DNA of 64,000 bases. Origin: Ketobacter sp. Its GTDB lineage: Bacteria; Pseudomonadota; Gammaproteobacteria; Pseudomonadales; Ketobacteraceae. Both the position numbers and the translations under genes were made by a program. The notes under the pieces are model-generated. The model was given only the letters and a program-made list of their open reading frames with translations, ran no database searches and was not told where the DNA came from. Shown here piece after piece: positions 7,118 to 30,598 of the stretch; position 1 is the first letter of the stretch; the number at the start of each line of letters is the position of its first letter. Location: assembly GCF_003671495.1 (NCBI RefSeq), contig NZ_RCHN01000004.1, positions 1 through 64,000 of the forward strand, in the 5' to 3' direction.

Positions 7118-10100
7118 TTAAGCGATCGGCACATCAATTAAATGTTCCAGATCTCCTGCAACAGGCTCATCATTGAGCATATCCACCATACCATTGGCCC
7201 TAATCAAAAAGTGGCCCATGAAAACGGCGTTACTGTAAAGGATAGTGCACTCAATCAGGTAGTTGCCTTCTTCATCTTGTCCATTGAAGATAACTGGTCT
7301 AGCTGTGCCTTCGATTACACTTGCTGAAGTTGAGATGTCAGTTAGCTTGATATTCCTGTCTGCTTTGGATTCAAGCACATAGAACGGTCCTTCGTCTCCT
7401 CTCACAAAGAAGCAGAAAAATTTCAAGTACTCAATCACATTGCTTTCATTCAGACGAAGCGGTGCCTTGAGGTTGACTTCATGGATCGGTGGGGACGTAC
7501 CATTTAAGCGAAACAGATTACCGGTGGTTTTATCGACCAGATAAAAAATACATAAACGCTGATTTTGCCATGTCTGATCTTTTACTCTCACCAGAACGAT
7601 ATTCTGATAAAAGGGCAATGATCGGTACACCATCTGGGTTGTTCTTGGATCAACAGCATATTTGCCGTCAATGGGATTGATCTGTTTAAGCAGCTTCTCG
7701 TCATCAATATTCAGCCACGGCGGTAACACAGGATCAATTGGCCGCTGAAATTGAATGCCGTGGTAAAGGGTCTGCAAAATATCCTCAGCAGGGCTTTCCG
7801 GTTTTGGCTTATTAACCGGCGGGTGCTGTTTTTTCTCTTCATTCTGGTTGCTAGCGATCTTCGTAGCGACTTCCGGATTTTCCGCGGTGGTTTTCTTCTG
7901 CGTCTCCACCGGTTTTGCATTACCATCGTCGCTCGCCGGTTGTGGTTTTTGGTATAGGCTTTGCGCTTGCTGCTGACGCAGCAATAGTAGGTTTTCAGCA
8001 GCAATCATCCTGTTTTCTCTGCTAAATAAACCGGCTGCTCCGGCTTGTTTAAGCACCGAAACAATCTCATCGAATCCGTTTTCAGCAGCAAGAAAAATGG
8101 CGGGCAGATTGTCTGCGCCATGGAGATCCAATTGAGCACCATAACTGATTAACAATTTGCACACTTCTGCTGCCCCGGATCGAGCGGCAATCTGCAAAGG
8201 TGTAAGGCATTCATCCAACGTTGCCATATCAATAGACAAAGAGTTAGTTCTCAGTATGATGCCTACTATATTCGGCAAATTGTACAAGGCAGCAAAATGC
8301 AGCGCTGTCCAACCATCCCGGCTGCTCTGATTGATATCCGCACCCGCTTCAATCAGATGAGCACTCAAATCATCAAAGCGACGACGAATGGCATAGTGTA
8401 AAGGCGTAAGACCATTTTCATCCGCTGCGTTGATATCAGCTCCATGTTTGAGAATCAGGTTGATAACAGCAATTGACTGACTTTCAATTGCACTGTGGAA
8501 CGGTGTTTTACCAAAATCACAGCGTAAATGCATAGTCAAACTCTGATCAATTAAATACTCAATACATTCTATTGCGCCTCGTGCACAGGACAAATGCAGT
8601 AAGGATCGTCCCTCACGATCCGTTTCATTGATGCTGGCTCCGTAACTGAGCAACAAACTGAGCATGGCAACGTCGTTTTTGCTGATCGCCGCGCTGAGGG
8701 GACTCAACTCTTCATATTGAGGATATCGGTAAGGATAGGCGTTGGCCTTGAGTAAGGCTGCTGCGATGTTGCTGTTGCCGTTGTTGATGGCAACAATCAA
8801 CGGCGTTTCGTTATTCTTATTCAGCGCGTTAATATCGACGTTGCACTCCAATAAAATATCCATTAACTGCCTATTACCGCTTTTAGCCAGAACATGCAGC
8901 AGCTGATTTCCATCCTGGTTCCGCTCAGCAAGCGATACGTGCCGATCCGCACACAATAATTGAAAGATATCCACCAGACTCTTTTCTACCGCGAGCCAAA
9001 GCGGTAACTCATCAACGTTTTTCGAATAGTGATTCCGATTGATTTTTGGAAACTCCAACAGAGTCTTGACCGTTTCATGGTTCTGCGTATCCACAGCGAT
9101 CCATAAAGCCTGGTGGGAATCTTTGTCCTGCGATTCGAAATCCAGTAGACGACTTGTCGCCATGGTACGAATACTGGCGATACTGTTTTGTTTAACCGCA
9201 AGCAAAAATGGAGTCAGTTGTTCTTTACTCACGGCGTTGACATCGATGCCTTCCTGTTTCAGCAGAGTAGCCACGATATCCGGTTGATTCTGACGACACG
9301 CAATATGTAATGGAGCATCACCGTAACCGTTAGGAATATTGACATCGATTCCCGATTGCAGCAGAAACTCCACACATTCAGGATAGTTGCTTTCGCTACC
9401 GATGCCTTCCAATGCAAAGCCCTGACAGCATAAATGTAGTAAATTCCAACTCTGCTTTGACAGATAAGCAAGGTTTCCATTCAACGACAGCAGAAATTTT
9501 ACCACCGCGGTATTGCCACGCAGCGCTGCCAGGCTCAATGCATACCAGTTATCGACCTCTCCCTTAAAAGACTCCGTTAACGCTTGCTCAGTAATGGGAT
9601 AGCAGGCCATCAGCCGCTTTATAACATTGAGGTTCCCACCCTCAGCGGCAAACAGCAGTGCCGTACATTGATGTTTGGATCGGGTAAAAGGATCGGCACC
9701 TCGTCCGAGCAGATAATTCACCGCTGCATATTGCCCGTGATAAGCCGCCGTCATAAGCGGTGTAAACAGCTCATGACATTTGGCATTGGCTGATAAACCG
9801 AATTCCAGCAGGATTTCCAGAATTCGGGGATTACCGCCACGGGCTGCAAAACTGAGGATACCGGTGCCCTGTCCGTTGACATAATCGATATTCGCACCAT
9901 GCCTCAACAGTAAATCCACCACGGCGAAGCGAGCGCACTTAACCGCCACAACCAACGCAGGAACACCGTTAGAGGTCTCACAATTCACATCGATTCCTTG
10001 ATTCAGGAAAAACTCGATGGCCTCATATTGTCCATTGGCGATAGCCACATGGTAACAGTTGTAATCATCATCGTTGAATTCTTCGAATTGATCTGCACCA

Positions 10101-11407
10101 CGATACAAAAATTGAATACTGGCCAAACTACCATTGGCCGCAGCGCTTATCAGCGCGGTATTATTCCTGCTGTCACGCACATCATGAACTGCATTATCCA
10201 GGTCGAGCAGTAATTCCAAAATGGCTACACGGTTGTGGGCTGCCGCCAGGTGAAAAGCGGTTATTCCGTTGTCGTTATGGGCGTATAGTATGGTGGGTAA
10301 GGCGCTGACAACAGACTTCACCTCCTGGCTGCGGTTGGCGATGATGGCGTCAAAAAGCTGCGCGATCTGCTGTTTGAGCCTGGCACTGCCTGTTTTGGCG
10401 AAATCCAGGACATTGTCAGCGTTGACTTCGGTTCTAGCATCGGCGACGCTAATCGGGTTCCGGGTATTCCTGATCTCAGCATCGGTCAAAGTCGATGCAG
10501 CATCGAAATCGATCCTGCTGTCCAAACCTATGGACGGCTCCAGCGTAACACTCGTATCCTGAACGGCACTCTTAAAGGCATGATTAAAGCCATAACTACG
10601 CAGCATGGTGGCAGGAGAGGGTAGGGTTACCTTACCGATGCTCCACTGCAAATCCGGCAAATTCGACGCGAATCTGCGCGCTTTGTCTTCATCTCCCAGT
10701 ACCAATGACTCAATCACATGGGAACGGCCAAGTAATGTGGAAAAGGATGAGAGCGGTAACTCCAATAACGGCCGCACTTTGGTAAAACGCAACAAATCCT
10801 GGCGGTTCTTGGCATCGCTGGAACTGATTTTATTGGCTGCTTTGTGCATCTCTTCAGCCAGTAACTCAGCTGCCGTCATGGGATCGGCATAACCCAGAGC
10901 CACCCAGCCGATTCGATTCAAGTAATCCTTTTCAATCAGATTGACTTCTTTGGCGATGCGATTTCTGGCTTTATTAAAATATTGCAACGCCAGTTGCGCC
11001 ACCTGACGCGTGCGGGAACCCAATTCATAGGGGCAATGTTTGATTCCCCATTGATTCAAAGCCAACATCAAATGCCAGCGGACTTCCTTATCCATTCGGT
11101 AATAGCCGCACCCCAATTCACAAGTTAACAGGCCAAACAGTACATCGGCATCCAAAGCGGTATTGAATTTATCCGGCAGTTGCAAAAAATTAACTCTGAC
11201 CAGAGCAACGATGTCAGCATTGAATAATTCAAAAGGCGCCAGGTGAGCCGACAATAACAACGCAGCTTCACCATACTCACGGGAATATCGACGAATCAAA
11301 TCGGTGGCTTGCGATTGCTGCAGAGGTGAACCGTCCCAAACTTCAAGGCTATCAGGATTATCAGATACGGCTTCAGCGGTGGTTACGGTGTTGTCGGTAT
11401 TCATCAT
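7118..11407 (-). CDS. 1429-aa ankyrin-repeat protein with VMAP-like N-terminus and a C-terminal domain shared with the AAA+ ATPase
   Basis: Residues 1 to about 250 are helical. The stretch around residues 50-120 (AHLAPFELFN, then YYRMDKEVRWHLML) resembles the conserved region of proteins linked to MoxR-vWA conflict systems. About 22 ankyrin repeats follow (about 375-1115; for example LTPLHYAIRR, GWTALHFAA). Then comes a low-complexity Gln/Lys/Pro linker (about 1130-1215). The last 170 residues form a domain also found in the AAA+ protein at 15779-17542, sharing NGTSPPIH/DGTSPPIH, EYLKFFCFFV/DYLRFFCAFV and DEP. Its start codon overlaps the vWA stop (shared base 11407), so the two are translationally coupled. 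I infer a scaffold or sensor that contacts other components through the shared domain. Confidence 0.8.
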   Translation of the reverse strand: MMNTDNTVTTAEAVSDNPDSLEVWDGSPLQQSQATDLIRRYSREYGEAALLLSAHLAPFELFNADIVALVRVNFLQLPDKFNTALDADVLFGLLTCELGCGYYRMDKEVRWHLMLALNQWGIKHCPYELGSRTRQVAQLALQYFNKARNRIAKEVNLIEKDYLNRIGWVALGYADPMTAAELLAEEMHKAANKISSSDAKNRQDLLRFTKVRPLLELPLSSFSTLLGRSHVIESLVLGDEDKARRFASNLPDLQWSIGKVTLPSPATMLRSYGFNHAFKSAVQDTSVTLEPSIGLDSRIDFDAASTLTDAEIRNTRNPISVADARTEVNADNVLDFAKTGSARLKQQIAQLFDAIIANRSQEVKSVVSALPTILYAHNDNGITAFHLAAAHNRVAILELLLDLDNAVHDVRDSRNNTALISAAANGSLASIQFLYRGADQFEEFNDDDYNCYHVAIANGQYEAIEFFLNQGIDVNCETSNGVPALVVAVKCARFAVVDLLLRHGANIDYVNGQGTGILSFAARGGNPRILEILLEFGLSANAKCHELFTPLMTAAYHGQYAAVNYLLGRGADPFTRSKHQCTALLFAAEGGNLNVIKRLMACYPITEQALTESFKGEVDNWYALSLAALRGNTAVVKFLLSLNGNLAYLSKQSWNLLHLCCQGFALEGIGSESNYPECVEFLLQSGIDVNIPNGYGDAPLHIACRQNQPDIVATLLKQEGIDVNAVSKEQLTPFLLAVKQNSIASIRTMATSRLLDFESQDKDSHQALWIAVDTQNHETVKTLLEFPKINRNHYSKNVDELPLWLAVEKSLVDIFQLLCADRHVSLAERNQDGNQLLHVLAKSGNRQLMDILLECNVDINALNKNNETPLIVAINNGNSNIAAALLKANAYPYRYPQYEELSPLSAAISKNDVAMLSLLLSYGASINETDREGRSLLHLSCARGAIECIEYLIDQSLTMHLRCDFGKTPFHSAIESQSIAVINLILKHGADINAADENGLTPLHYAIRRRFDDLSAHLIEAGADINQSSRDGWTALHFAALYNLPNIVGIILRTNSLSIDMATLDECLTPLQIAARSGAAEVCKLLISYGAQLDLHGADNLPAIFLAAENGFDEIVSVLKQAGAAGLFSRENRMIAAENLLLLRQQQAQSLYQKPQPASDDGNAKPVETQKKTTAENPEVATKIASNQNEEKKQHPPVNKPKPESPAEDILQTLYHGIQFQRPIDPVLPPWLNIDDEKLLKQINPIDGKYAVDPRTTQMVYRSLPFYQNIVLVRVKDQTWQNQRLCIFYLVDKTTGNLFRLNGTSPPIHEVNLKAPLRLNESNVIEYLKFFCFFVRGDEGPFYVLESKADRNIKLTDISTSASVIEGTARPVIFNGQDEEGNYLIECTILYSNAVFMGHFLIRANGMVDMLNDEPVAGDLEHLIDVPIA

Positions 11408-12672
11408 TACGACCTTAGGTAGTCAACGGCTTGCAGCAGATCATTGGCGGAAAGCTCAAACATAGGCATTATAGGATGGGAATCAAAAACCGCTGTAAAT
11501 TCCGTAAGCCAACGATTTGCCGGCATGGGATTGATCCACAGCGTTCTGCGATTGGATTTCGTAGCTAGCTTTTCCAAAAAAAGGTCTAACCGTTTTATTC
11601 GCGTTGAATCGAATTCCCGGGAAGCGGCTCCACAATCGGAAAACACCACGATATAGGAGTGCTGGTTTGCTTGCAGGATTGAGTCACTGCTTTTAGACAT
11701 AAGCAATCTGGGATCCAGGTATAAATCCGTTCCAGGGATCTTATTAAAAAAGTATATCTGCACTGACTTTAGGCGGCTGAGTTTGGATAATGCCGTTTTG
11801 GCCAGAATTTCACTGACCTTTTTCCAGGGAGTCATATTGTTATTAACATCGATTAACAATAATAATTCTGCCGTATTGAATGCCCTGTCAAGCATCACCG
11901 GATTCACCAAAAAACCGGTTTCGCAAAGATGCGCAACGGTTTTGTTAATATCCACCAGGTCCCTTTCCGCTATTTTAGTGGGTTTGTAAAGTCGACGCCA
12001 TAACGCCAAAAGCCAAAGTTCCCCCAATTCCGGTTCCACAACCCAATGAAAAGGTCGGCTTGAATCAAGAGTAATTTCCCCAAGCACTGGCATCACGATA
12101 TCTGAACTTGTACTATCGGAATCTCCCCCCATGGAAGCGTCTTCTACCGTGTCAACACCCACTGTCTGCTCGCCACCGGAAACCTGCGACTGCCGACTTG
12201 GAGTATCACCTTTAGCATCGTCATTCACGCCTGAACCAAGCGGTGGTTCAGCAGCAGTCTCCTCGGTCTGGCTGTGTCGGGGAAAAACCACTGCCGGTTC
12301 CTCGAATTCCAAGGCGTCGGTTTCAGCCTCCAAGGTGTCGATGGACAGCTCGAACCATTGATAAATGTTCTGATTATCTGCAAGCGGAATTTCCTGGCAA
12401 ATCACGTTTTGAATCAAATCTTTTTCCTGCTGGCTGCGCGCCCACAATGTCTGACACAACCACACCAGCGCAGAGCGGATTTGTAACGAGATACCGTTAA
12501 AGTCGTCGTTATTGCTGTTACGGCGAGCTGCATCCAGTTTTTCACGCAACGTGATAAAGCGGCTACTGTAAATCCGCAGCGACTGCAAACCTTCCAAATA
12601 GTCTCGGATACCCAAGGGCAGCCCCCTGGCTTTCAATTGCAGAAATAATCCGTATAACAGTAAATGATTCAT
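11407..12672 (-). CDS. vWA-domain (CoxE-like) protein, partner of MoxR ATPase
   Basis: This is a 421-aa protein. Residues 1-110 have the helical N-terminus of CoxE/MoxR-partner proteins (LKARGLPLGIRDYLEGL). Residues 120-200 are acidic, Ser/Thr-rich and probably disordered. Residues 205-420 look like a von Willebrand A domain, with LLLIDVNNN at about 271-279 in the place of the MIDAS motif (canonical DxSxS) and VVFSDCG as the later metal-site strand. The two MIDAS serines are Asn, so metal-dependent ligand binding may be altered. It lies 44 bp downstream of the MoxR gene and overlaps the ankyrin gene by one base. By family knowledge, vWA proteins act as substrate adaptors for MoxR ATPases. Confidence 0.75.
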   Translation of the reverse strand: MNHLLLYGLFLQLKARGLPLGIRDYLEGLQSLRIYSSRFITLREKLDAARRNSNNDDFNGISLQIRSALVWLCQTLWARSQQEKDLIQNVICQEIPLADNQNIYQWFELSIDTLEAETDALEFEEPAVVFPRHSQTEETAAEPPLGSGVNDDAKGDTPSRQSQVSGGEQTVGVDTVEDASMGGDSDSTSSDIVMPVLGEITLDSSRPFHWVVEPELGELWLLALWRRLYKPTKIAERDLVDINKTVAHLCETGFLVNPVMLDRAFNTAELLLLIDVNNNMTPWKKVSEILAKTALSKLSRLKSVQIYFFNKIPGTDLYLDPRLLMSKSSDSILQANQHSYIVVFSDCGAASREFDSTRIKRLDLFLEKLATKSNRRTLWINPMPANRWLTEFTAVFDSHPIMPMFELSANDLLQAVDYLRS

Positions 12673-12716: not shown

Positions 12717-13676
12717 CTATTTTGGCAACAGACTGGGTTGCAGCAATTTCAAATCTTCACCCAGCTTGAACAGCAGTCGCCAGTAGGGAGGGTTGCTATT
12801 GGTCAAGTCCTCCGCTTTGATATTTCTTAGATGCAGCACATGGACCCAATCAATAAGCTCTGCCGTCGCCGGTACTTTTGCCACATTGGAGTTGATGGCC
12901 TCCTTCCTGATTTCCAGAAAACTTTTTACCGCAGCCTCGATCAGCTCCTTGGAAATGGTTTCCAGAGTGATCACTTCTTTTTCTGTGGCCAGTTTGGCAA
13001 GGTTGGCGTTGACAATATCCACCAGCATTGACTCTTTGTTGGGGAAATTGAGTTCCAGGTAAAAACAACGGCGCAAAAAAGGTTTGGACAGAGGCTTGGA
13101 ACGGTTACTGGTAAAAATCACAATGGGCTTGAAGCCTTGCTCAGGCCCCTCTATCCAATGCCCCAGCTGAGTTTGATCCATTGCTTCCTGATGTGAGTTC
13201 TCTGGTATTTCAGTAATCTGAAATTTGAAATTTTCGATGACATAAAGCAGGTCATCGGCAAAATCGATGTCTGCCTTATCGATTTCATCGATCAACACCA
13301 CACTGGGTTCGCCTTGCTGAATAGCCTTTCCAAGAAACTCCAGTTCCACATAATTGTAGGCTTGTGCCGCTTTATTGATTTGAGCCTCATGCTTTGATTG
13401 ACTGTCCTGGAGTCTTCCCAACGCATTGTAGCGATAGAGTAAATCGTTGGCTCTGGAGGTGCTTTTAACAGGCACTATTTTCGGCCCGTCCTTGATTCCC
13501 AAATCCTCGGCAATGGCATGCGCCAACTGTGTTTTGCCGCAACCGGGCTCACCCTCCACCACTAACGGTTTACCCAGTTTAATGGCGAAATCCACTATCT
13601 CCCTGTCCATCGGATCGATGAGATAGGATTGACAACGATCGCCGGTGAAATCGGGATATTGGTTGGTTTTACGCAT
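12717..13676 (-). CDS. MoxR-family AAA+ ATPase
   Basis: This is a 319-aa protein. Walker A GEPGCGKT is at residues 42-49, Walker B VVLIDEIDKAD around residue 130, and sensor 1 VIFTSNRSK followed by an arginine-finger context LRRCFY at about 193-207. The length and layout are those of short MoxR ATPases, which remodel or insert cofactors into partners together with a vWA protein. That partner gene lies immediately downstream. All catalytic positions I can check are intact, unlike the STAND-like neighbour upstream. In conflict systems the MoxR-vWA pair is thought to act as an NTP-dependent switch. The particular target here is unknown. Confidence 0.85.
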   Translation of the reverse strand: MRKTNQYPDFTGDRCQSYLIDPMDREIVDFAIKLGKPLVVEGEPGCGKTQLAHAIAEDLGIKDGPKIVPVKSTSRANDLLYRYNALGRLQDSQSKHEAQINKAAQAYNYVELEFLGKAIQQGEPSVVLIDEIDKADIDFADDLLYVIENFKFQITEIPENSHQEAMDQTQLGHWIEGPEQGFKPIVIFTSNRSKPLSKPFLRRCFYLELNFPNKESMLVDIVNANLAKLATEKEVITLETISKELIEAAVKSFLEIRKEAINSNVAKVPATAELIDWVHVLHLRNIKAEDLTNSNPPYWRLLFKLGEDLKLLQPSLLPK

Positions 13677-13715: not shown

Positions 13716-15590
13716 TTACTGCCCTGATTGATCAGTTGCTATTTCTATGAATTTATCGAATTTCGGTTCTTTGGCTTTGTGGTCGGTGCAACATTGTTCA
13801 TCTATTTTGTTGACTTTCCACGATGCCAGTACATAAAAAGATGACTTCAATTGCCGCTTTGCGCCGTTTTCCAATTGTTTTTCCAGACTGGTATAAAGCG
13901 GCCGCCAGATCTTGTTGAGAAACTCTGTGTGGCTTACAACATTTTGAACATTGTCCAATACCAACATCAGCGGTCGGTTGACGGCGATGATTTCTGTCGA
14001 CAGTCGGTTGAGCTGCTTAACGTAGTCTGATTGTTCGTTGACGGTAATTTTCAGTTCCCGATACAGCAGATCCCAAATGCAATCGATTTTGCTCTCAGAA
14101 GCCATATTCAGGTAAAACGGCTTTTCCACTCCCCAAATGTCAGACTCTTTTAAAAACTTCATCGTTTGTGTTACCTGTTTCTGTACTTTGCCGTGAACCA
14201 AAATACAAAAACCCGGCAGGGGTTTGATCTTATTTTGCTTGGCAAAGGATGCGAGAATATCTTTGCCTAAGGAGGTGATGGATTCGTCTTTCGCCGACTC
14301 AGTAAAAACAGCATGAATGGTCATTTTTGGTTTGCCGCCACTCTGCTGGGAATGTCCCATCAAAGTTGGAGTTTCCACTCTGGCGACAATGGAATTTTCG
14401 ATATTTTGTTTGAGGTCATCCCGTGAATTAACGGCTCGATGATGGCCCCATTCACGGTGGGCGGTGCTGAAGATAAGATGTTCCAAATTGGCAAGTTCAC
14501 TTTCATCTTCCATGGCAAACCTCTCGATAGAGGTCACGTCGTTTGGAGCGGTTGAAAGTCTTTTTTTCAGATATTTTATCCGTTCAATTTCAACGCTCTG
14601 GTCCAGATCGCTATCAGGTTCCGGTTCAAAGATAAAAATGGGAATTGCATACTGCTCTGTGACTTCACAGGAAAATTTCAATTCATAGTGGCGCTTGGAA
14701 TTTTGCGGCTTTTCCTTGGTGGGTTTTATAAACTTCAACCGTTCTCCATAGCTTTTACCAATGATGACACAATAGATATCATAGTTTCCCTGCTGGATGG
14801 TATATTTGATTTCCTGATATATTTTTTCGTTGATTTGGTAGAGATCTTCTGCGGAAGCGGTGGTCGCTCTTTCCGCAATGTCTTCATTGGAAACTTCCAA
14901 TTCAACAGCTTCAGCTGCATCCGCTTTGGCAACGGATTCGTAGTCAATCGTAAAAAAACAGTGACTCAGTTTCCTTACAAGATGTTCCTTGATATCCTGT
15001 TCCAGGAATTTAACATCATCATGCACGCCCAATACCAGCACGTTCTGTGGCCGATCGGCTTGTTTGGGTTTATGGATTTTCCCGGGAAAAAAAGCGCGAA
15101 AAACATCATCGTCCTGTTGATCACCTTGAAAAAATCTATCCGTGATGTCTATCAAGGAATGTATCACTGCTTCTAAATTGGAACTCCAGTCATTTTTAAT
15201 CAGACTCACTGTAGCGGCGAGATTCATGATTGAAACAAAAATCTTCCATTTCAGCCCCTGGTAATTTTCCACATCCTTATCTGACAAATGACCACGCATA
15301 CTGTTAAACTGCTTCCAATACTTGTCATAGGTGGATCTGTTCAAACCCACTTTCCTTAAAGCTTTTTCCCTTTTATCTGCTTCTGTACCGGTAGTGGCTT
15401 GATCATATTTGAACTGCATCCGACATACGTATACAAGCATTGCCGCAGTAACGACGAGTATCTTATCGATAGAAAACTCTTTACCCCTGAGCTTTCTGCT
15501 TTTTGTAACGATTGAGTCGTATTGAGCTTTCACCTGGCCTTTTTTCCTCGATACAGTGTTCAATGGGAAATAACAAACAGCTTTGGTCAA
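13716..15590 (-). CDS. DUF4062-like plus degenerate STAND-like protein
   Basis: This is a 624-aa protein. Residues 1-160 are helical and unrecognised. Residues about 183-330 (NVLVLGVHDD, YDIYCVIIGKSYGER, then IPIFIFEPE) follow the Rossmann-like order of DUF4062/TIR-related domains. Residues about 425-624 look like a P-loop fold with the nucleotide site eroded: VHGKVQKQ stands where GxxxxGK[ST] is expected, and LMLVLDNVQN resembles Walker B. This fits the inactive STAND (iSTAND) domains known from NTPase-based conflict systems. The start codon is TTG without a clear ribosome binding site; an internal GTG at about residue 19 is an alternative. It is followed by the MoxR gene after 39 bp. Confidence 0.6.
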   Translation of the reverse strand: MTKAVCYFPLNTVSRKKGQVKAQYDSIVTKSRKLRGKEFSIDKILVVTAAMLVYVCRMQFKYDQATTGTEADKREKALRKVGLNRSTYDKYWKQFNSMRGHLSDKDVENYQGLKWKIFVSIMNLAATVSLIKNDWSSNLEAVIHSLIDITDRFFQGDQQDDDVFRAFFPGKIHKPKQADRPQNVLVLGVHDDVKFLEQDIKEHLVRKLSHCFFTIDYESVAKADAAEAVELEVSNEDIAERATTASAEDLYQINEKIYQEIKYTIQQGNYDIYCVIIGKSYGERLKFIKPTKEKPQNSKRHYELKFSCEVTEQYAIPIFIFEPEPDSDLDQSVEIERIKYLKKRLSTAPNDVTSIERFAMEDESELANLEHLIFSTAHREWGHHRAVNSRDDLKQNIENSIVARVETPTLMGHSQQSGGKPKMTIHAVFTESAKDESITSLGKDILASFAKQNKIKPLPGFCILVHGKVQKQVTQTMKFLKESDIWGVEKPFYLNMASESKIDCIWDLLYRELKITVNEQSDYVKQLNRLSTEIIAVNRPLMLVLDNVQNVVSHTEFLNKIWRPLYTSLEKQLENGAKRQLKSSFYVLASWKVNKIDEQCCTDHKAKEPKFDKFIEIATDQSGQ

Positions 15591-15778: not shown

Positions 15779-17542
15779 TCAATGCACCAACCTTGGATTC
15801 TGGTGTGATAAAGCAATATTAGTGTCAATTAACCTTACATCCAGGCGCAAAATTTCGATCTTGCCCAAAACAGTGGTACTGGCCTTCGCCAAGCGCTTAC
15901 TGCGAATGGTGGCGTTGACCATGGCTGCCTGCATATGCCGTTTCATGTCCCGGATATCGGTGCAGACACTGGCAATGATCGCAGTTACCTCATCTGGCAG
16001 ATCAGCCGCAAAATGTTCCACCACATCGATCTCCTCCAACAAATCCTGATAAATGGAATACACCATTTGTTTACGTTGCTTGGCATTGGGTTTCACAATA
16101 TTGAAACATTGAAAACGCGAAAGGATGGCATCAGGAATGTCCTCCAGACCGTTACTGGTGGCAATCCAGTTAATGAACTGACAATTGATATTGACGTTCA
16201 GGAATTCATCCACAAAGTTCCTGGCTGAGTTGGGTTCCAACAGTGTGTAAAGCGTATTCGTCACCGGATACTGCTCGCCGCCGGCAATTTTATCCATTTC
16301 CTCCAGCACGATGATCCCGTTGGCGCAGCGGTTTTCCATTTGGGTATCGGCGATCAACCCAGGCTGGCCCGATCGCCATACCCGACTGGAACCGGATAAC
16401 ACAAAGGCGGCACTGGTGGTGGCAACGTCGATGGTTCTGGAAGGCAGCGTCAATACCTTGGCCAATTCCTGGATATACCTTGATTTGCCCGTGCCTGGCG
16501 GTCCATTCAACAGCATACGTGGCAATTTGATTTCACCTTTTTTGAGCGTGGTTGAAAACAACAGCGCCTCCCGGATCACCGCGGTAACGGCGGCAAAGAT
16601 GGGAAATATTTCATCGAGTCTGTCGAACTCAGCCATATCGCCGCTATATCTTTTCAGCGGCAGATAACCCTGGGTTTTTTCCAACGCGCTGGTGTAGGTT
16701 TCAAAATAGCGGGTTTGGTCACCCTGGGTTTTTTCTTTTTCCCTGAGCAATTGGTCAAAGTTGAATACCTCAACCTGGGTCTCCTGCTCTGAGTTTGGTG
16801 GTTGTCGGTTGCGTCGGCGTTCGGTTCGTTCCGCTCGCTCCCTGATTTCTCGTGCCGGCGTCACAAATTTTTCCTGATATTGGCCATACTGCGTGTGCTG
16901 CTGACGCAACGGAAAAAATCGTTTTGGCTTTGGCAGCGTTTCAAATGCCGCCAACGGTTCATCGTCGTTCATGGTAATCATGCCGTTGGGTTCAACGGTA
17001 AAATTCACCTTAAACAACGATGCCTCATACAAAACACTGGTGTTGAATTGCCATCCGTTACGCAGATTTTCCTGTGAAATGCCCAGAGTCAGGGATTTCA
17101 CTGCCTGCTGCGCTTCGTCATTGTCGGCAATCAAGGGGCTGTCGTTACTGGAAACAATATGGAATGATCCCTCCTCGCCCTGAACAAAAGCACAAAAGAA
17201 ACGCAGATAATCTTCAGCGCTGTGATCGTTCAGCGCAAATCGGGTGGCCTGATTCAGATAGTGGATCGGCGGGCTGGTGCCGTCCAGATAGACCATCGGC
17301 GTACCGTCTTCCTGCATGACAAAGTAGGCAGGAAATTCGTTGTCCTGCTCCAGACCGGTTACCCGCAGCAGAATCAACTCTGGATAGAACGATAATGTAG
17401 TCCAGGATACCGAGACGGAATCAGCAGCCAATTCCATTTCTGCAAATCGATCTGCCAACATGGATTCTACCTGTTTAAACAGACCCATATCATCATTCAC
17501 CCAGCACTCTTCAGTAGTTAATAAGTCGATTGCGTGTTGCAT
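15779..17542 (-). CDS. Lon-like AAA+ ATPase with N-terminal shared domain, no protease domain
   Basis: This is a 587-aa protein (an in-frame ATG 9 bp upstream abuts GAGG; the ATG at 17542 has proper spacing). The residue numbers here count from that upstream ATG. Residues about 50-205 are the domain shared with the C-terminus of the ankyrin protein. A basic linker with many Arg (235-250) follows, then an AAA+ module with Walker A NGPPGTGKS (349-357), Walker B IIVLEEMDK (413-421) where Glu replaces the usual Asp, and sensor 1 WIATSN near 464. No Ser/Lys protease domain follows. It is the first gene of the minus-strand run and faces the ubiquitin-like module across a 180-bp divergent region. 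I infer an unfoldase or remodeller recruited by the shared domain. Confidence 0.75.
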   Translation of the reverse strand: MQHAIDLLTTEECWVNDDMGLFKQVESMLADRFAEMELAADSVSVSWTTLSFYPELILLRVTGLEQDNEFPAYFVMQEDGTPMVYLDGTSPPIHYLNQATRFALNDHSAEDYLRFFCAFVQGEEGSFHIVSSNDSPLIADNDEAQQAVKSLTLGISQENLRNGWQFNTSVLYEASLFKVNFTVEPNGMITMNDDEPLAAFETLPKPKRFFPLRQQHTQYGQYQEKFVTPAREIRERAERTERRRNRQPPNSEQETQVEVFNFDQLLREKEKTQGDQTRYFETYTSALEKTQGYLPLKRYSGDMAEFDRLDEIFPIFAAVTAVIREALLFSTTLKKGEIKLPRMLLNGPPGTGKSRYIQELAKVLTLPSRTIDVATTSAAFVLSGSSRVWRSGQPGLIADTQMENRCANGIIVLEEMDKIAGGEQYPVTNTLYTLLEPNSARNFVDEFLNVNINCQFINWIATSNGLEDIPDAILSRFQCFNIVKPNAKQRKQMVYSIYQDLLEEIDVVEHFAADLPDEVTAIIASVCTDIRDMKRHMQAAMVNATIRSKRLAKASTTVLGKIEILRLDVRLIDTNIALSHQNPRLVH

Positions 17543-17721
17543 ACCATCCATCCTCTTTTAGTTCATTTGCTATTTATATGGACGGTTCACACACACATTT
17601 TCCAATGCTGAATCGAATAATCAAAAATTTCAGATCAATTGGAAAAACACTATTTTCACTGTCCTTTACCTAACAACCAAGCAAACAACATCAATGCTCA
17701 ACAACAGAAAAGGTAGTGAAG
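17543..17721. promoter_or_regulatory. Divergent intergenic region between the AAA+/MoxR run and the ubiquitin-like run
   Basis: This A+T-rich gap separates two outward-facing gene runs and must hold promoters for both. I could not pick convincing -35/-10 pairs by eye. A shared region of this size suggests the two halves can be co-regulated. Confidence 0.5.
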
Positions 17722-18252
17722 ATGGACGACAATAATAATGACCCTACGAATGGCGTCGACGACTTCGAAGCAATGACACTGGATAACAGTTATGAGGATG
17801 AACAGTTCCACCAGGCCAACGAGGAGGCACAACAATATTTGGAAAGCATTGAGGCAACGCAGGCAAGGGTAGAGGCATTCAGCGGCTTTGTGGACGGCCT
17901 GGATGCCATGTCTGAAACCTATGAATCGGTTCAAGCCGATCCCTACGATTACGGTTTCGATCACCAGGATCACCACTATGACCACGCCGTTGACGGCATG
18001 TTTATGGGTGTTGCCGCAGGTATTCATATGTCACAGCAAATTGGCAGGGCCTGCCATGATTACTTTAGTTCACACTCTGAAGATTCAAGCTCCCTTGAAG
18101 AAACCGATTTGGATAACACCCAAACTGAGAGTTTCGAATTTGAAGAGGACCACCAGGACGACTTTGCTGACCAGGATGATTTTATCACTGAACAGGAAGA
18201 GCTTTGGGACGACTCTTTCGAAAGCGACATCGCTGACGATGACGAATTTTAA
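17722..18252 (+). CDS. Highly acidic hypothetical protein heading the ubiquitin-like module
   Basis: This 176-aa protein is very rich in Asp/Glu, above all in the last 70 residues. It has a central His/Asp/Tyr segment (YDYGFDHQDHHYDH) and one short hydrophobic stretch (GMFMGVAAGIHMS). I chose ATG 17722 because AAGG lies about 9 bp upstream; GTG 17716 is too close. It precedes the E2-like gene by 30 bp. I do not recognise a family. The charge profile would suit an adaptor, a DNA mimic or a conjugation target, but nothing here decides between them. Confidence 0.65.
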   Translation: MDDNNNDPTNGVDDFEAMTLDNSYEDEQFHQANEEAQQYLESIEATQARVEAFSGFVDGLDAMSETYESVQADPYDYGFDHQDHHYDHAVDGMFMGVAAGIHMSQQIGRACHDYFSSHSEDSSSLEETDLDNTQTESFEFEEDHQDDFADQDDFITEQEELWDDSFESDIADDDEF

Positions 18253-18282: not shown

Positions 18283-18771
18283 ATGGTATTACAACGAAAA
18301 ATCAAACCCTCCCAACCCACTCGACGCGATCATATGCTGCTGCAACTGAACAGGGGGGTGCAGCAGTTACTCGACAGTTTTGAACCACCCAAAGACGGTA
18401 GTAAACGGATTTCCCGCTTAGTGGCCGGCAACCGCTTGCTGGCAGTACAACAATTTCCCCTGCCGGACCGATTCCTGCCTAAAGACAATGTTAATCTGGT
18501 TGTGGATCTGGATCCGGTGCCGGGAGCGCCGCCAAAAGGTTTTTTCATCATCGAAAAGGATAATCGCAGTACCATCGATGCCATTTCCGCAGCGTTGGGC
18601 GGACACTTGTTCAATGCTGAAACCGCGCCTTACGACACGCCCAAATTCAAAGGCGGCATCTGGATCTGTCATCACTATGCCGGCCATACCTGGAAGTTCA
18701 ACGCCAACAACCCGGCGGCCGGTGACAACATCGCTAAATTCCTCGAAACCTTTTATGCGCGAATCATGTAA
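18283..18771 (+). CDS. Prokaryotic E2-like protein candidate
   Basis: This 162-aa protein has a helical N-terminus, then a beta-rich core (VNLVVDLDPVPGAPPKGFFI), then IWICHHYAGHTWKFN and PAAGDNIAKFLETFY. The pattern strand-Pro-rich loop-strand, Cys-His-His, Trp, GDN, C-terminal helix resembles the bacterial E2 family E type, in which a His follows the catalytic Cys. Cys129 is the only cysteine in the protein, which makes it the obvious thioester candidate. The assignment rests as much on neighbours (a Gly-ending small protein and a JAB-E1 fusion) as on sequence. GGAG precedes the ATG. Confidence 0.6.
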   Translation: MVLQRKIKPSQPTRRDHMLLQLNRGVQQLLDSFEPPKDGSKRISRLVAGNRLLAVQQFPLPDRFLPKDNVNLVVDLDPVPGAPPKGFFIIEKDNRSTIDAISAALGGHLFNAETAPYDTPKFKGGIWICHHYAGHTWKFNANNPAAGDNIAKFLETFYARIM

Positions 18772-18847
18772 TAACCGGGAGGATGATCGCGATTAAAAAA
18801 ATATTCAAACCACATGGAATCGAGTGCAAAACAACGACCTTATGTTA

Positions 18848-18877
18848 TTAACACGGCAATTAAAATTGTCGGGTTAA
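18848..18877. repeat. Imperfect inverted repeat between E2-like and ubiquitin-like genes
   Basis: Arms 18848-18861 and 18864-18877 pair at 12 of 14 positions around a 2-nt loop, in the 139-bp gap before the 67-aa gene. No T-run follows, so it is not a standard terminator. It might set relative expression of the modifier gene. Confidence 0.4.
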
Positions 18878-18910
18878 TAGTACCAAACAATGAAAACCCA
18901 GAGGTGATTT

Positions 18911-19114
18911 ATGGCTAATCGTAAAAAAGCAACCATTGAAGGTGAAGTATTTGAAGTGGATGACAGCGTCAAAGTAGGAGAACTGATTCCCGCTGAAGTG
19001 TCATCGGTTATCGATCAAAAAACCGGTAAGGAATATCAACGCAGCGAGATCGCTCAAATGCCCGCGGCAGGCACCGATATGCGTCTCAATTTCGTGAAAC
19101 TGGAGAAAGGGTGA
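18911..19114 (+). CDS. 67-aa ubiquitin-like modifier candidate ending in glycine
   Basis: This small protein begins with a predicted beta hairpin (KATIEGEVFEVDDSVKVGEL), continues with a short polar middle, and ends with a strand and tail MRLNFVKLEKG. The size, beta-grasp-like strand pattern and exposed C-terminal Gly fit a single ubiquitin-like modifier. Its position between E2-like and JAB-E1 genes is where such modifiers sit. Because the Gly is already terminal, no proteolytic maturation would be needed. Sequence similarity to known modifiers is too weak to assert by eye. GAGGTGAT is a good ribosome binding site. Confidence 0.55.
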   Translation: MANRKKATIEGEVFEVDDSVKVGELIPAEVSSVIDQKTGKEYQRSEIAQMPAAGTDMRLNFVKLEKG

Positions 19115-19129
19115 AAACGGGAGCGGCAT

Positions 19130-20593
19130 ATGAAAACGATTTTAAAAATCCTCGAAAACACCTACCAGTCCGTAGTGAGTTATCACAATTCACACTCGGC
19201 GGAGCGGGTCAGTTTTCTGACCGGCTCCCTGGTTAAAGGCAAAGATCGACAAATGATTCTGGTCAGTGGAGAACCCATCTTCCTGGCGGAAGATTGCTAC
19301 GAAACTACTACGCGGAGTTATCTCCGCCTGTATCCCGACGTGGCAGCGCCGCTGATGCAACATTTTGTGGAAGGCTTTGATCCGGTGTTGATCAACATTC
19401 ATCATCACCCGTTTTCTGAAAGCGGCACCGGTTTCTCTGCGGTGGATGATGAAGACGATATTCGCATGGACAAAGTCTTACGCTCCATCCGCGATGAAAT
19501 GGGGCTGCCGTTTATCAATGTGTCCATGGTTTTGGATCAAAACAGTTTTGATGCGCGCATCACTGATACCAGTTCTACTCAGGTTTTCACATCCATCGAT
19601 CAGGTTCAATGTATCGGCAGCGACCGCTTTCATATTCGCTACCCCAACAGTGTTCAACCCCAGCAATTGTTAACGGATGAGATAAGCTGCAGGCAGAACT
19701 TCATCGATCCACCAATTCAACATTGGCTGAAGCATGCGCATATCGGTATTTGTGGAGCCGGCGGCACCGGCAGTATCACTGCCGAGGCACTGCTACGCTA
19801 TAACTGCGGTCACATTACCATTGTGGATGACGACGTGGTTGAAACCTCCAACCTGAATCGATTACAAGGTGTCGGCTATCAGGATGTGGGGCAACACAAA
19901 GTCAAAGCCTTGCGTCGCCATTTAAAACGGTTATCACCGAAAACCCACTTAACCACTGTTCATTCAGCGATTCATGAGCAAAAAGCATTTGATGCGTTAA
20001 TGCAGTGTGATGTGGTGTTCAGTACCGTGGATAACGCCTATGCCCGAGCGGCCCTGAACCAACTCTCGGTACAGGGCATGATTCCTTTATTCGATGTGGG
20101 TGTGGAAGTAGCCCTGGAACCCACCAATTTTCTGTATCGGGTGTTCAATGTTTTACCAGGGGCATCGGCCTGCATGATGTGCAGTCAGTTCGAGATGGTG
20201 GACATGAACCAGGTCAATCGGGCGTCTTTGAGTGCCGAGCTGGAAGCGGAATATCGCGCCCGAGGTTATATCACCGGAGTGGAGCAAGCAAAAGCAGCTT
20301 CGGTGTACGGCTTGAACCTGATGGCGGTGGGCGCAATGATGACAGATTTTCTGAATTATCTTTGCGGCTTTCGTGACATGACCGTGCTGCGATATTCCAA
20401 CTTTCAGGAGCGTCGATTGGAGACCACCGAACAACAGGATTATCCTGCCAACAAACCGGCAGCAGATTGCCCGGTTTGTTCCAGCTATCTGGGACGCGGT
20501 TATGATCTGCCCACACCCTATTTAAACAAGACTGAGCATCAGCAAAAAAGCGTCCAGCAACTGTTTTTGGAAAACAGCAATATCTTCTCTTGA
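19130..20593 (+). CDS. JAB/MPN-E1 (ThiF-like) fusion protein
   Basis: This is a 487-aa protein. The N-terminal domain (about 1-175) carries a JAMM metalloprotease motif: His91-x-His93-Pro94, then Ser103 and Asp106, i.e. HxHP(x8)SxxD, one residue longer than the canonical spacing. From residue 205 an E1/ThiF adenylation domain follows: GICGAGGTGS nucleotide loop (207-215), IVDDDVVETSNLNRL, FSTVDNAYAR. Two CxxC pairs (CMMC at about 348-351, CPVC at 447-450) suit the structural zinc of ThiF/MoeB-type enzymes. The fusion couples activation of a modifier with its removal. GGGAG precedes the ATG, 15 bp after the modifier candidate's stop. Confidence 0.85.
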   Translation: MKTILKILENTYQSVVSYHNSHSAERVSFLTGSLVKGKDRQMILVSGEPIFLAEDCYETTTRSYLRLYPDVAAPLMQHFVEGFDPVLINIHHHPFSESGTGFSAVDDEDDIRMDKVLRSIRDEMGLPFINVSMVLDQNSFDARITDTSSTQVFTSIDQVQCIGSDRFHIRYPNSVQPQQLLTDEISCRQNFIDPPIQHWLKHAHIGICGAGGTGSITAEALLRYNCGHITIVDDDVVETSNLNRLQGVGYQDVGQHKVKALRRHLKRLSPKTHLTTVHSAIHEQKAFDALMQCDVVFSTVDNAYARAALNQLSVQGMIPLFDVGVEVALEPTNFLYRVFNVLPGASACMMCSQFEMVDMNQVNRASLSAELEAEYRARGYITGVEQAKAASVYGLNLMAVGAMMTDFLNYLCGFRDMTVLRYSNFQERRLETTEQQDYPANKPAADCPVCSSYLGRGYDLPTPYLNKTEHQQKSVQQLFLENSNIFS

Positions 20594-20604: not shown

Positions 20605-21807
20605 ATGACCGTTGATCGTGAAGAGTTTCTCGAGGAGTGGGCCACTACCGGTGAGTTTCGAGACTTCGATGTTTTTGAATTTACCGTAAGTCACGCCCGC
20701 CCGCTTTTATTCAGCGAAATCAACCTCAGCTGGCAAGGCGAGGGCGCACTTTATCCTGTCAATCTGTACAAGGATGGTGAACCCTTGTTAATGGATCAGC
20801 CCAGTACCGGCAGTTACAGGCTGGCAGTGGACAGCCCTGAGAGTTTTCAATTACAGGCTGAATTCGGTGACATCATCAAGGAGTGTCTGGTGACACCACG
20901 GGTGGAGCAACCGGTTATTCAAGGCTTTAACGTCAAACCAGAGGTCTTTGTCAACGAAGACATCGCCGTAAAATATAAGGTAAAACATGCCGAACGAGTG
21001 GAGATTTGCTGTCGCGGAATGGATTCGGATTATGAAAATACTATTATTCAGGACGGCACGGCAAAAAACACGCTGTATTTTAAGGTGCCTGGCCCGGGAG
21101 CGTATTCTATAAACCTGGTGGTTCTGGGTGAACACGCGATTATCAGTGAACAGGCAATCACAACGGCAACCATCTCTTTCGTGGCGAAGTACCATATGCC
21201 GGTTATCCAACAGTTTGTTGCTGACAAATCAAAAGCAGTGCTGGGAAAACCCATCTCCATTCGCTGGCAAACAGCCCATGCAACACAAATCTGGTTTGAA
21301 GATTCGAACGGCGAGCGAATTCCCGTGCCCGCAGCGGGAACGCTCTCAGTCAATTCAGCGGCAACCATCGGTCCAAGCCGACACCGCTTAGTGGCTGAAA
21401 ATATTATCGGTGAACAGACCGTTGCAACAGTTGCGGTCAAATGGATCCAGCCGCCACCCCGACTCAACCTCGCGGTTTCCGCAACGACTATCGGCAAGGG
21501 TGAGGTCATTCAACTTAGTTGGCGTGCTGAAAATGTGCGGGAGTATTGGTTGGAGTGTCACAATCAGCGTCATCAATTAAAACTCATGGTCAAGGAAAAC
21601 TCCGGTAGTTTGGAACATCGTCCGCTGTTTGACTGTGATTATTATTTGATAGCTGTCAATTTCGCCGGGGAAGTCATCAGACGTAAATTAACAGTAACAG
21701 TACAAGAATTACCACGAGGAATAGAATTCGATCGAGAACTAGAATCTTTATCAAAGGATATAACGGACAGGTATTCAAGATTATCGGAAAAACAGACTTT
21801 TACATAA
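20605..21807 (+). CDS. Multi-domain Ig-like protein of the ubiquitin-like module
   Basis: This 400-aa protein is almost entirely beta-rich. After an N-terminal segment of about 100 residues come three tandem Ig-like units. Each starts with a Pro-x-[IL]xxF/L strand and holds the pattern I-x-[LVI]-x-[WK], for example ISIRWQTAHATQIWFE, IQLSWRAENVREYWLE and IAVKYKVKHAERVEIC. There is no signal peptide or TM, so it should be cytoplasmic. ATG 20605 has GAGGAG 7 bp upstream. It is translated directly after the JAB-E1 gene (11-bp gap). I infer a binding or recognition subunit, possibly the target or specificity factor. The family was not recognised. Confidence 0.65.
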   Translation: MTVDREEFLEEWATTGEFRDFDVFEFTVSHARPLLFSEINLSWQGEGALYPVNLYKDGEPLLMDQPSTGSYRLAVDSPESFQLQAEFGDIIKECLVTPRVEQPVIQGFNVKPEVFVNEDIAVKYKVKHAERVEICCRGMDSDYENTIIQDGTAKNTLYFKVPGPGAYSINLVVLGEHAIISEQAITTATISFVAKYHMPVIQQFVADKSKAVLGKPISIRWQTAHATQIWFEDSNGERIPVPAAGTLSVNSAATIGPSRHRLVAENIIGEQTVATVAVKWIQPPPRLNLAVSATTIGKGEVIQLSWRAENVREYWLECHNQRHQLKLMVKENSGSLEHRPLFDCDYYLIAVNFAGEVIRRKLTVTVQELPRGIEFDRELESLSKDITDRYSRLSEKQTFT

Positions 21808-23256: not shown

Positions 23257-23870
23257 CAGGTTGCTTTGGGACGGGTACTGGAAGCTGTGTCTGTTATTTT
23301 GCATGAATTACTTGATGCGATGCTTTGAGTGAAGTGGCTTGCCTGTAGCGGGGATTACCTGAGCTACAAAAAAATTCATGGGGTTTGGTCGAACAATTAG
23401 TAATTTTGAGAGGCGTCTTTTGATCGGAGATTTGCTAGTAAGGCAAAACGGCAGTTTGTTCATCTATGAACTATAGCTTGGCTGTCTTAGTAATATCCCA
23501 CCGTGTCGAAGTAGTTTACTTTCAGTTATCGTTGATTTGACAGAAGTCGCAATTGAGGTGACGGGAAGGGCTCAACAAGGAAGCGAAATCAAACAAAGCA
23601 TCCTTGATATTAGCAGATGGTGGCCATAATAGTTATTCAGCTTAGTTTTAGTGACTATTTTTTACACCAGAATAGTTCTCTTATCTTCCCAGCTGATGTA
23701 CGTAATGCAGCGAAAATATGCTGAAGAAATCCTCTCGGTCTCTGAGATACGGCGTTTTGATTAGCAATATATTTATCCAATGCCTGCTTATCGCTTGCTT
23801 GTACCCGTTTAATTACTGCTTCACAGAACGGCTTCTGGCAAACCTATGAGCGAAGTCGTTAACCACTCCA
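23257..23870. other. Gene-poor stretch with probable debris
   Basis: No gene with start and ribosome binding site is visible. On the minus strand between about 23656 and 23840 a frame of about 60 codons stays open (it includes QASDKQALDKYIANQN) but lacks a start codon. It may be another fragment. Confidence 0.4.
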
Positions 23871-24251
23871 ATGGACAGAAGTTGTTCGAAGACTTCGACG
23901 GAACCACTACTTCTCAAACAAACCAAACAATATAGCTCCCACAGTGTTGAGCGGATAAATAGTGTATGTATGCACGAAATGGCACATATTGTATTGGGAC
24001 ATCGAGTGCACGATGTGACGATTTCAGAAGCAGGTCATTTGGTTCCCGGGAATTTCAGCAAAGATCAGGAAGATTAAGCAGATTGGCTCGCTGGCGCGCT
24101 TTTGCTTCCTCGACCTGCACTATTAGATGTTAGACGCAGAGCATTGTCGGACGATCAGATAAAAGAAGAATACTTGGTAGGTTTTGAGATGATTAGGTGG
24201 CGATTTCGTGTGACTGGAGTTGACTACCAATTATCAAATAGACGGTACTAG
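23871..24251 (+). pseudogene. ImmA/IrrE-type metallopeptidase pseudogene
   Basis: The frame shows SHSVERINSVCMHEMAHIVLGH, split here as the lead-in VERINS and the zinc motif HEMAH (HExxH). It then reads ADWLAGALLLPRPAL and YLVGFEMIRWRFRVTGV, the hallmark order of ImmA/IrrE peptidases. A TAA at 24075-24077 interrupts the frame just before ADWLAG, exactly where the family usually has an acidic or Gln residue. The N-terminal part is missing or unrecognisable. Such proteins usually partner an HTH repressor in phages and mobile islands; none is present here. Confidence 0.75.
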
Positions 24252-29064: not shown

Positions 29065-29083
29065 GCCGGCGGCCTCGCTGCGA

Positions 29084-30598
29084 TCAGTTGTAGATGTGGT
29101 GAATGCCTTTGGCCGGTTCGCTCAGGCCTTCCCGGTTGAGTTGCTCCAGAATCCGATCCAGGGTTTTGGAAATCAGGGCCGCATTTTTGATTTGTGCCAG
29201 CTTGGGCCAGGTGGAACGCATGCCGATGTCCACCAGGTTTTCAATTTCCCCTTCCTTGAATTCGAATACTGTCTGCCGCCATTTGAAATCCTGTTTGCGC
29301 AACAGGATGTTGATGTCCCCCAGGTAATTCTGTTCCAGCATGCGTACGGTGTAAGCAATCTGCGCGGCAATGCGACTGCCCATTTCACCGCGACGATCAA
29401 AGAAGCGCTCGGAATTGGCCAGGGTTTCATTCAGCACTTTGATGAAGGCTTCGGACAGGGTGTGACGGAAGCCCTTGGTGTGGCGGGTGGTGACGTCCTC
29501 AACAAAGGGCACCACCATCGGGTTGATCAGGCTGACGATAAAATGGTTCACACCATAAATCCGGCTCAGGCGTTTGGCCGGTAAATCCCCGGACACGGAC
29601 CCATCCACCCAGCGGCGGCGAGCCAGGTAAGGCCGCGGTTTGCCATCAAAGCCTTTGGCATACAGCCGCTCGGAAGGCATCAGGCCGGGAATGCTGGAGG
29701 AGGCGGAGACGGCGGAACGGATATAAACGTTGGGGGAGGTGATGGCATTCATCAGGCGGGAAGACTGGTGTTTTTCTGCCGGAGAAATGGAAATGTTGAT
29801 GTAGCGACCGGTGAGTTCGAAGGCTTCCTGAAAGGTAAGGTCCAGGGGCACGATTTCGTCCAGGGTCCGCTCCCGGGCGGCCTTGGCATCCTCATCGGAA
29901 ACACGGCCCATGAATACGTCCATGAGGCGGGTCTTCTTGGTTTCCTCGTAGTGCTTGTCGGTGAAAAACCCCTGCTTCAGCTCGGCATCGGTTTTGGTGC
30001 CCAGCAGGGCGGAGACGATGGAGCCGGCACTGGCGCCGGACACCACGTTAGGCAGCAGGTCGTGATCGATGAGTTCCTGCACCACGCCGTGATGGAAATA
30101 AATCAGGCCGGCACCGCCGCTGAGCAACAGGGCGCTGCGTCCGTAACAGTGGCTGGCACGGCGGAAAAAATCCACTTTTTCCGGGTAGGAAATAATGTCT
30201 TCCGGGCTGCGATGGATGAACTCCAGCGCCTGGGCAATGGTGGCCACGTAACTGTCGATCAGGTGCTTGGTACCGGCCTTGGCGCGGGAATACAGAATGG
30301 GTCGACCCATGCCGCCCATGTTACCGTGCACCCCTTCGTTCAGTGCGTAAAGCAATTCCTGGTGGGCGCCGGCGTTGAGCAGGTCTTTCAGTTTGTCGTG
30401 ACGGGAACGGATCGCTGCATAATCGTACAGGTTGGAACGCTCTGCATCCCGCCATTGTTCAGCACCGGACAGCATGTCGTGCTCCCGGGCCAGGGCATAC
30501 CAATCGTCGTAGTTGTGCACGGAGTCCATGCGTTTTTCTAACTGGCGTAAATTGGATTTGCTGGCAGACAGCACGGGGGGCAGGGAAAGCGATTGCAT
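29084..30598 (-). CDS. DUF3336 patatin-like phospholipase/lipase
   Basis: This is a 504-aa protein. Residues 20-115 match the DUF3336 helical region that precedes patatin in yeast and plant triacylglycerol lipases (NYDDWYALAREHDMLSG). The patatin domain has SGGAG as oxyanion region, nucleophile Ser190 in GASAG, and the catalytic Asp in WVDGS. There is no signal peptide or barrel, so this is an intracellular enzyme, presumably acting on triacylglycerol or membrane lipid. GAGG lies upstream of the ATG. It sits tail to tail with a secreted patatin of a different subfamily. Confidence 0.85.
   Translation of the reverse strand: MQSLSLPPVLSASKSNLRQLEKRMDSVHNYDDWYALAREHDMLSGAEQWRDAERSNLYDYAAIRSRHDKLKDLLNAGAHQELLYALNEGVHGNMGGMGRPILYSRAKAGTKHLIDSYVATIAQALEFIHRSPEDIISYPEKVDFFRRASHCYGRSALLLSGGAGLIYFHHGVVQELIDHDLLPNVVSGASAGSIVSALLGTKTDAELKQGFFTDKHYEETKKTRLMDVFMGRVSDEDAKAARERTLDEIVPLDLTFQEAFELTGRYINISISPAEKHQSSRLMNAITSPNVYIRSAVSASSSIPGLMPSERLYAKGFDGKPRPYLARRRWVDGSVSGDLPAKRLSRIYGVNHFIVSLINPMVVPFVEDVTTRHTKGFRHTLSEAFIKVLNETLANSERFFDRRGEMGSRIAAQIAYTVRMLEQNYLGDINILLRKQDFKWRQTVFEFKEGEIENLVDIGMRSTWPKLAQIKNAALISKTLDRILEQLNREGLSEPAKGIHHIYN

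Follow-up and report, generated by a model that had tools for sequence, protein, structure and literature searches.

Two divergent operons and their surroundings

The window, that is the whole stretch of 64,000 nucleotides analysed from Ketobacter sp. (contig NZ_RCHN01000004.1, positions 1 to 64,000), carries a plus-strand operon of five co-directional genes encoding, in order, an acidic protein, an E2-like protein, a ubiquitin-like (Ubl) modifier candidate, a JAB-E1 fusion protein and an Ig-repeat protein, with a second operon running away from it on the minus strand (see below). The sole larger gap within the plus-strand operon is one of 139 bp between the E2-like and Ubl genes, while the acidic gene is probably the first gene of the operon. 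An ORF check returned the same order and coordinates for the E2-like, 67-aa and JAB-E1 genes as had been given in a first-pass annotation of this DNA. The reference point for the cassette is the Bub (bacterial ubiquitination-like) operon, BubA/BubB/BubCD, represented by the Citrobacter structures 9ea4, 9ea5 and 9eae. The features of the intergenic region and of the plus-strand operon are as follows:

17552..17715, no strand: A+T-rich intergenic region of 164 bp (33.5% GC) separating the two divergent operons
17716..18252, plus strand: very acidic 178-aa protein (53 D/E, 3 K/R), the gene ending 30 bp 5′ of the E2 gene
18283..18771, plus strand: E2/UBC-like protein of 162 aa, a putative remote relative of Prok-E2_E/BubB
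18667..18669, plus strand: Cys129 codon (TGT) in the E2-like gene, its C-H-H coinciding with the serine of the relatives' S-x-H or lying one residue away
18911..19114, plus strand: ubiquitin-like (beta-grasp) modifier candidate of 67 aa, with a C-terminal Gly67 (...KLEKG) and an AF2 model
19130..20593, plus strand: JAB-E1 fusion (BubCD-like) of 487 aa, from the Pfam ThiF match, the BubCD match and conserved catalytic columns
19130..19640, plus strand: JAB/JAMM protease part, residues about 1-170, with E25, H91, H93, S103 and D106, from alignment with BubCD
19700..20479, plus strand: E1/ThiF adenylating part, residues 191-450, with GxGGTGS at 209-215, D233, N241, R244, K257, D301 and the CxxC pairs 348/351 and 447/450
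20605..21807, plus strand: tandem Ig-like beta-repeat protein, three repeats being read from the sequence

The Ig-repeat gene lies in a 405-aa ORF which at its longest begins with TTG at 20590, the likely start being the ATG at 20605, 11 bp past the JAB-E1 stop and preceded by a purine-rich stretch. No signal peptide was seen in the Ig-repeat protein, a Pfam search gave no family above the cut-off and neither 56 relative genomes nor plasmids yielded a homologue. It is possible that this protein is a substrate or adaptor of the tagging described below.

Elsewhere in the window an ImmA/IrrE-like metallopeptidase frame (HEMAHIVLGH) at 23850-24251 is broken by an in-frame TAA at 24075-24077; several Bub relatives have a HTH and ImmA/IrrE pair just upstream. 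A Type VI secretion cluster (FHA, VasE, IcmF, VipB, TssF) occupies 43438-63689 with a GC content of 58%, against 46-48% in the two operons.

The JAB-E1, E2-like and ubiquitin-like proteins

By sequence comparison the JAB-E1 protein is a divergent full-length relative of BubCD, an identity that lies far beyond chance. Residues 191-448 match ThiF in Pfam (E = 2.8e-36), ThiF/MoeB models match the E1 part and the best PDB match is Citrobacter BubCD (E = 1.3e-21, residues 87-423), a crystallised and solved JAB-E1 fusion. On alignment with 96 relatives for which an E2 could also be identified, the JAMM residues and the adenylation residues listed above, including the GxGGTGS loop, are all kept, nearly all of these columns being conserved in 93-96 of the 96, while the two CxxC pairs occur in 55-70 of them. 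A search of the same alignment by column conservation for an E1 thioester cysteine found none that was invariant or suitable, with the only column above 90% Cys (93/96) belonging to the xCxD motif of the ThiF fold and being occupied by Thr299 in the window protein. The first-pass annotation of a ubiquitin-like cassette with a JAB-E1 fusion is supported. The fusion is no distinguishing novelty: N-terminal JAB-E1 fusions, the hallmark of Bub, have been known since 2006 as operon type 6e (Iyer, Burroughs and Aravind, 2006; PMC1779556).

The window protein sits in the JAB-E1 tree on a very long branch (2.35) within a 23-row group that includes the FSWH-type loci (SH-aLRT 96%), its exact place on so long a branch being unsure; a branch of this length could also reflect relaxed constraint or a decaying function. 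No close relative of JAB-E1 was found, the best having about 32% identity among the matches listed from contigs of 84,980 species, and close relatives were likewise absent from searches of relative, class, phylum and order genomes, plasmids, phages and viral contigs.

On the evidence of sequence and modelling the E2-like protein appears to be a remote relative of Prok-E2_E/BubB, an assignment weaker than that of JAB-E1. It has no Pfam match, the Prok-E2_E model (PF14462) included, but a profile of the E2 domains of 99 relatives places it first among the window's 234 ORFs (hhalign P = 0.0013), and it is also the best window ORF by HMMER (E = 0.14). Its landmarks fall on conserved columns, namely F58-P-L-P61, the PxAxP formed by P80, A82 and P84, W127, and the H-x(n)-W of H130 or H131 and W137. 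The AF2 model, guided by 16 relatives, has a pLDDT of 68.5, and its nearest structure is Citrobacter BubB (Z 10.7, 117 residues) followed by the Tsg101 UEV (Z 7.1), the structure matches being E2/UEV folds throughout; as relatives were supplied for the modelling, the fold is partly imposed. Neither the E2-like protein nor the Ubl has a significant single-sequence homologue, searches of plasmids with both found nothing, and with the E2-like protein nothing was found in the other 368 class-sample genomes or in viral contigs.

Judged by sequence, the unusual part of the cassette is the cysteine of the E2-like protein, where its relatives have the serine of an S-x-H pattern; the first-pass annotation had singled out neither this nor the Ig-repeat gene and the divergent AAA/MoxR/vWA/ankyrin operon. 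C129 is the only cysteine of the protein and lies in an I-C-H-H motif, falling on the Ser column of the relatives or one residue off it depending on the alignment. In two of three alignments all 99 relatives have Ser at this column, and S-x-H is present in 96 of the 99 (WSRH in 74, FSWH in 16), with Citrobacter BubB also keeping the Ser.

The 67-aa protein has no family match, and the suggestion in the first-pass annotation that it is beta-grasp-like gains support from structure prediction. Single-sequence AlphaFold2 gave a mean pLDDT of 81.9 and a pTM of 0.62, the five models ranging from 52 to 82, with a predicted element order of beta-beta-alpha-beta-beta-alpha-beta; since no alignment was supplied to AlphaFold2 this fold was not imposed. 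Nearly all structural neighbours of the model are beta-grasp proteins, including ThiS (1f0z, Z 6.1, 60 residues aligned), Mth1743 and domains of the TGS and ubiquitin-like kinds; the bacterial Ubl of 8tyx, in complex with a deubiquitinase, gave Z 5.3. Weak Foldseek E-values (best 0.04) and Z scores below 8 mean that the result backs a fold rather than a family, and a beta-grasp fold is supported for the protein at the level of a model. Multi_ubiq (PF14452) gave no match to the protein at E 10, while relatives do match it (8e-29 for the Ubl of locus L036), and comparison by hhalign with the profile of the relatives' Ubls gave a weak match (P = 0.005, spanning 21 columns). At 67 aa the protein is smaller than the shortest Ubl among the relatives, which has 78 residues.

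It had been argued from the terminal glycine that the JAB activity would serve deconjugation rather than maturation. The argument is reasonable, but a modifier ending in Gly is not special among the relatives: 18 of 60 standalone Ubls do so, most of the others having a tail of one or two extra residues (32/60), with 40 further Ubls fused to E2.

The E2 gene is upstream of JAB-E1 in 97 of the 98 related loci with an identifiable adjoining E2, as it is in the window. The arrangement is Ubl-E2-JAB-E1, or a Ubl-E2 fusion followed by JAB-E1, in 94 loci, with two more having two Ubls, while the window order of E2-Ubl-JAB-E1 is found in none of the 98 relatives having all three domains. No match to the DUF6527 metal-binding gene was found in the window; this gene is not universal in the family, being present in 89 of the 120 loci where a JAB-E1 or E1 was matched, some of which are plain ThiF/MoeB loci. 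Searching the related loci by phmmer with the Ubl, Ig-repeat, acidic and divergent-operon proteins gave no clear match, leaving an association of those proteins with Bub elsewhere unsupported.

Two further diverged JAB-E1 loci of the same class (L127 and L128) have E2-like proteins that lack W-S-R-H, that of L127 having a Cys ahead of an L-S-R-P stretch. A Bub subgroup (L027, L028, L080, L103 and L151) combines an FSWH-type E2 with a Ubl usually ending near TFG and with a downstream gene of 500-560 aa, annotated as a phosphotransferase in L024; in L130 and L151 this gene is followed by a DUF6527-like gene.

The divergent minus-strand operon

The minus-strand operon carries the following genes:

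15779..17551, minus strand: AAA+ ATPase of 590 aa (Pfam AAA, 2e-10)
13716..15590, minus strand: protein of 624 aa, matched weakly by iSTAND at 481-577 (PF19995, E = 0.02)
12717..13676, minus strand: MoxR-like AAA_5 ATPase of 319 aa with the P-loop GEPGCGKT (Pfam AAA_5, 4e-13)
11407..12672, minus strand: CoxE-like vWA protein of 421 aa, adjoining MoxR (VWA_CoxE, 6e-4, below cut-off)
7118..11407, minus strand: ankyrin-repeat protein of 1429 aa, its C-terminal domain matching the AAA protein

The N-terminal domain of the AAA protein (residues 17-202) matches residues 1231-1418 of the ankyrin protein (blastp E = 2e-22), from which it is very likely that these two gene products belong together. The shared domain, of about 190 residues with a GTSPPIH motif, matched no Pfam family. 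It also occurs in plasmids of Sinorhizobium, Tistrella and Thiodictyon and in two related genomes, where it is carried either by large repeat proteins or by small proteins of unknown kind and no Ubl cassette adjoins. The MoxR-like assignment is clear, that of the adjoining vWA protein being weak, and the GEPGCGKT P-loop differs from the FtsH-type GXXXTAKS form. The iSTAND match in the 624-aa protein was the sole one genome-wide (E = 0.011, below cut-off). The domain common to the AAA and ankyrin proteins suggests one chaperone-type conflict locus. As the search turned up no other genome carrying the two operons, so that their linkage rests on one genome, and MoxR/vWA neighbours are absent from all related loci, coupling of this locus to the Ubl cassette is offered as a hypothesis.

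The Sinorhizobium meliloti plasmid pEm1132b (L158) encodes an ankyrin protein like that of the window (E 1e-68), its gene lying beside genes for patatin, a coupling protein of the T4SS and caspase/SUMF1. Patatins are encoded in the window too (26836-30598), as is a T4SS-DNA_transf protein (3145-4830).

Proposed working, alternatives and known systems

The analysis shows the gene content and order, the homology of JAB-E1 and the intact JAB and E1 catalytic residues, along with a predicted beta-grasp fold and a remote E2 likeness that has Cys on or beside the Ser column. The reading that we favour, with a probability of roughly 0.8, is that the cassette is a reversible ubiquitin-like conjugation system and belongs to the type 6e/Bub lineage as an outlier that has diverged fast. 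We infer that conjugation takes place with a thioester at Cys129, and likewise infer its targets and a function in conflict or stress defence, along the following lines. The E1 part would adenylate Gly67 of the 67-aa beta-grasp protein, with the acyl group then passing to the E2-like protein at Cys129, a residue that would replace the invariant Ser of the relatives and be assisted by a neighbouring His. From the E2 the tag would go to a target, the nearest candidates being the Ig-repeat protein or the AAA/ankyrin complex, and the JAB part, which shares a chain with the E1, would take the tag off, the modifier needing no trimming. The more specific proposal that a Bub-lineage E2 both uses a Cys thioester and modifies the divergent MoxR-vWA/AAA/ankyrin conflict machine, making a natural Ser/Cys switch coupled to a chaperone-controlled effector, is tentative and on balance unlikely.

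The clear relationship of JAB-E1 to BubCD, together with those alignments that place I128 rather than C129 on the Ser column, would also suit a canonical Bub system like that of Citrobacter, in which Cys129 has no special part and the role of the Bub serine falls to a residue beside it. We hold such a system to be distinctly improbable here, as the gene order, the missing DUF6527 and Multi_ubiq and the lost S-x-H all differ from it and the single cysteine lies in C-H-H ahead of an invariant Trp. The superposition of the Ubl model on ThiS and the ThiF/MoeB matches of the E1 part would suit a sulfur-carrier pathway (ThiS/MoaD-like), with the Ubl bringing sulfur to a small molecule and the JAB acting on a carrier fusion; against this, an E2-like gene adjoins, the JAB is fused at the N-terminus in the manner of type 6e/Bub, BubCD is the best PDB match and there is no sulfurtransferase or cofactor gene nearby, such that we give this pathway very little weight.

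A further possibility extends the conjugation reading rather than competing with it, namely that both operons form one conflict system in which the MoxR-vWA chaperone pair, the iSTAND-like protein and the AAA remodeller control an ankyrin effector, while the Ubl cassette attaches the tag to this effector and takes it off again. The promoter region of 164 bp shared by the operons, the domain common to the AAA and ankyrin proteins and the presence there of the only iSTAND match of the genome argue for it, as do the precedents of MoxR-vWA-FtsH systems with Ubl-conjugation genes and of iSTAND ternary systems (Kaur et al., 2020; PMC7159879). The two operons occur together in no other genome found, the related loci lack MoxR/vWA, the iSTAND and vWA matches are under curated cut-offs and the MoxR P-loop is not of the FtsH type, and weighing these points we put a single system at a little short of an even chance.

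The conjugation cassette resembles Bub operons in having a JAB at the N-terminus of the E1, adjoining genes for a small Ubl and a protein of predicted E2 fold, and conserved JAMM/adenylation residues. It is unlike them in the C-H-H of its E2 in place of W-S-R-H, in a Ubl of 67 aa that does not match Multi_ubiq, in the order E2-Ubl-JAB-E1, in lacking DUF6527, in having an Ig-repeat gene next and in the very long branch of its JAB-E1. While JAB-E1 is related to BubCD, the operon as a whole fails several Bub features and is best not classed as a canonical Bub operon. Bub itself is reported to use a non-thioester route. The Bil (bacterial ISG15-like) system, in which E1 and JAB are separate genes, shares with the window the full set of Ubl, E2, E1 and JAB activities (in the window predicted from the genes) and differs in that the window E1 and JAB are fused in a single 487-aa ORF, a distinction that had already been drawn in the first-pass annotation and that stands. 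PRTRC/type 6d was considered for its Cys...His E2 and rejected: it has separate JAB and ThiF genes whereas the window has the fusion, and TIGR03737 (PRTRC_B E2) was unmatched genome-wide.

With type 6e the window shares the JAB-E1 fusion, the Ubl, of which solo variants have been recorded, and a putative E2/RWD-like protein (PMC1779556). The type 6e E2s were reported to be without cysteine and 'inactive' (Iyer et al., 2006; PMC1779556), whereas the window E2 has a Cys and the metal-binding protein is missing. As in the MoxR-vWA ternary conflict systems, one class of which has iSTAND and another FtsH with Ubl-conjugation genes (Kaur et al., 2020; PMC7159879), a MoxR-like and a putative vWA gene are found beside genes for an AAA protein and a putative iSTAND-like protein. 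The FtsH subtype has no fusion of JAB with E1 but one of Ubl with E2, and there is a RING E3 and FtsH tandem (PMC7159879), while the Ubl genes of the window are divergent and of Bub type. Taken together the two operons resemble a new combination of the MoxR-vWA ternary classes. Bub-type E2s have been described as without the catalytic Cys known from eukaryotic E2s, and a cysteine at or next to the serine position offers a direct test of a serine/cysteine switch in E2 chemistry. Hints at where the tag might act come from the small size of the modifier, at 67 aa, and from the chaperone-type operon next to it.
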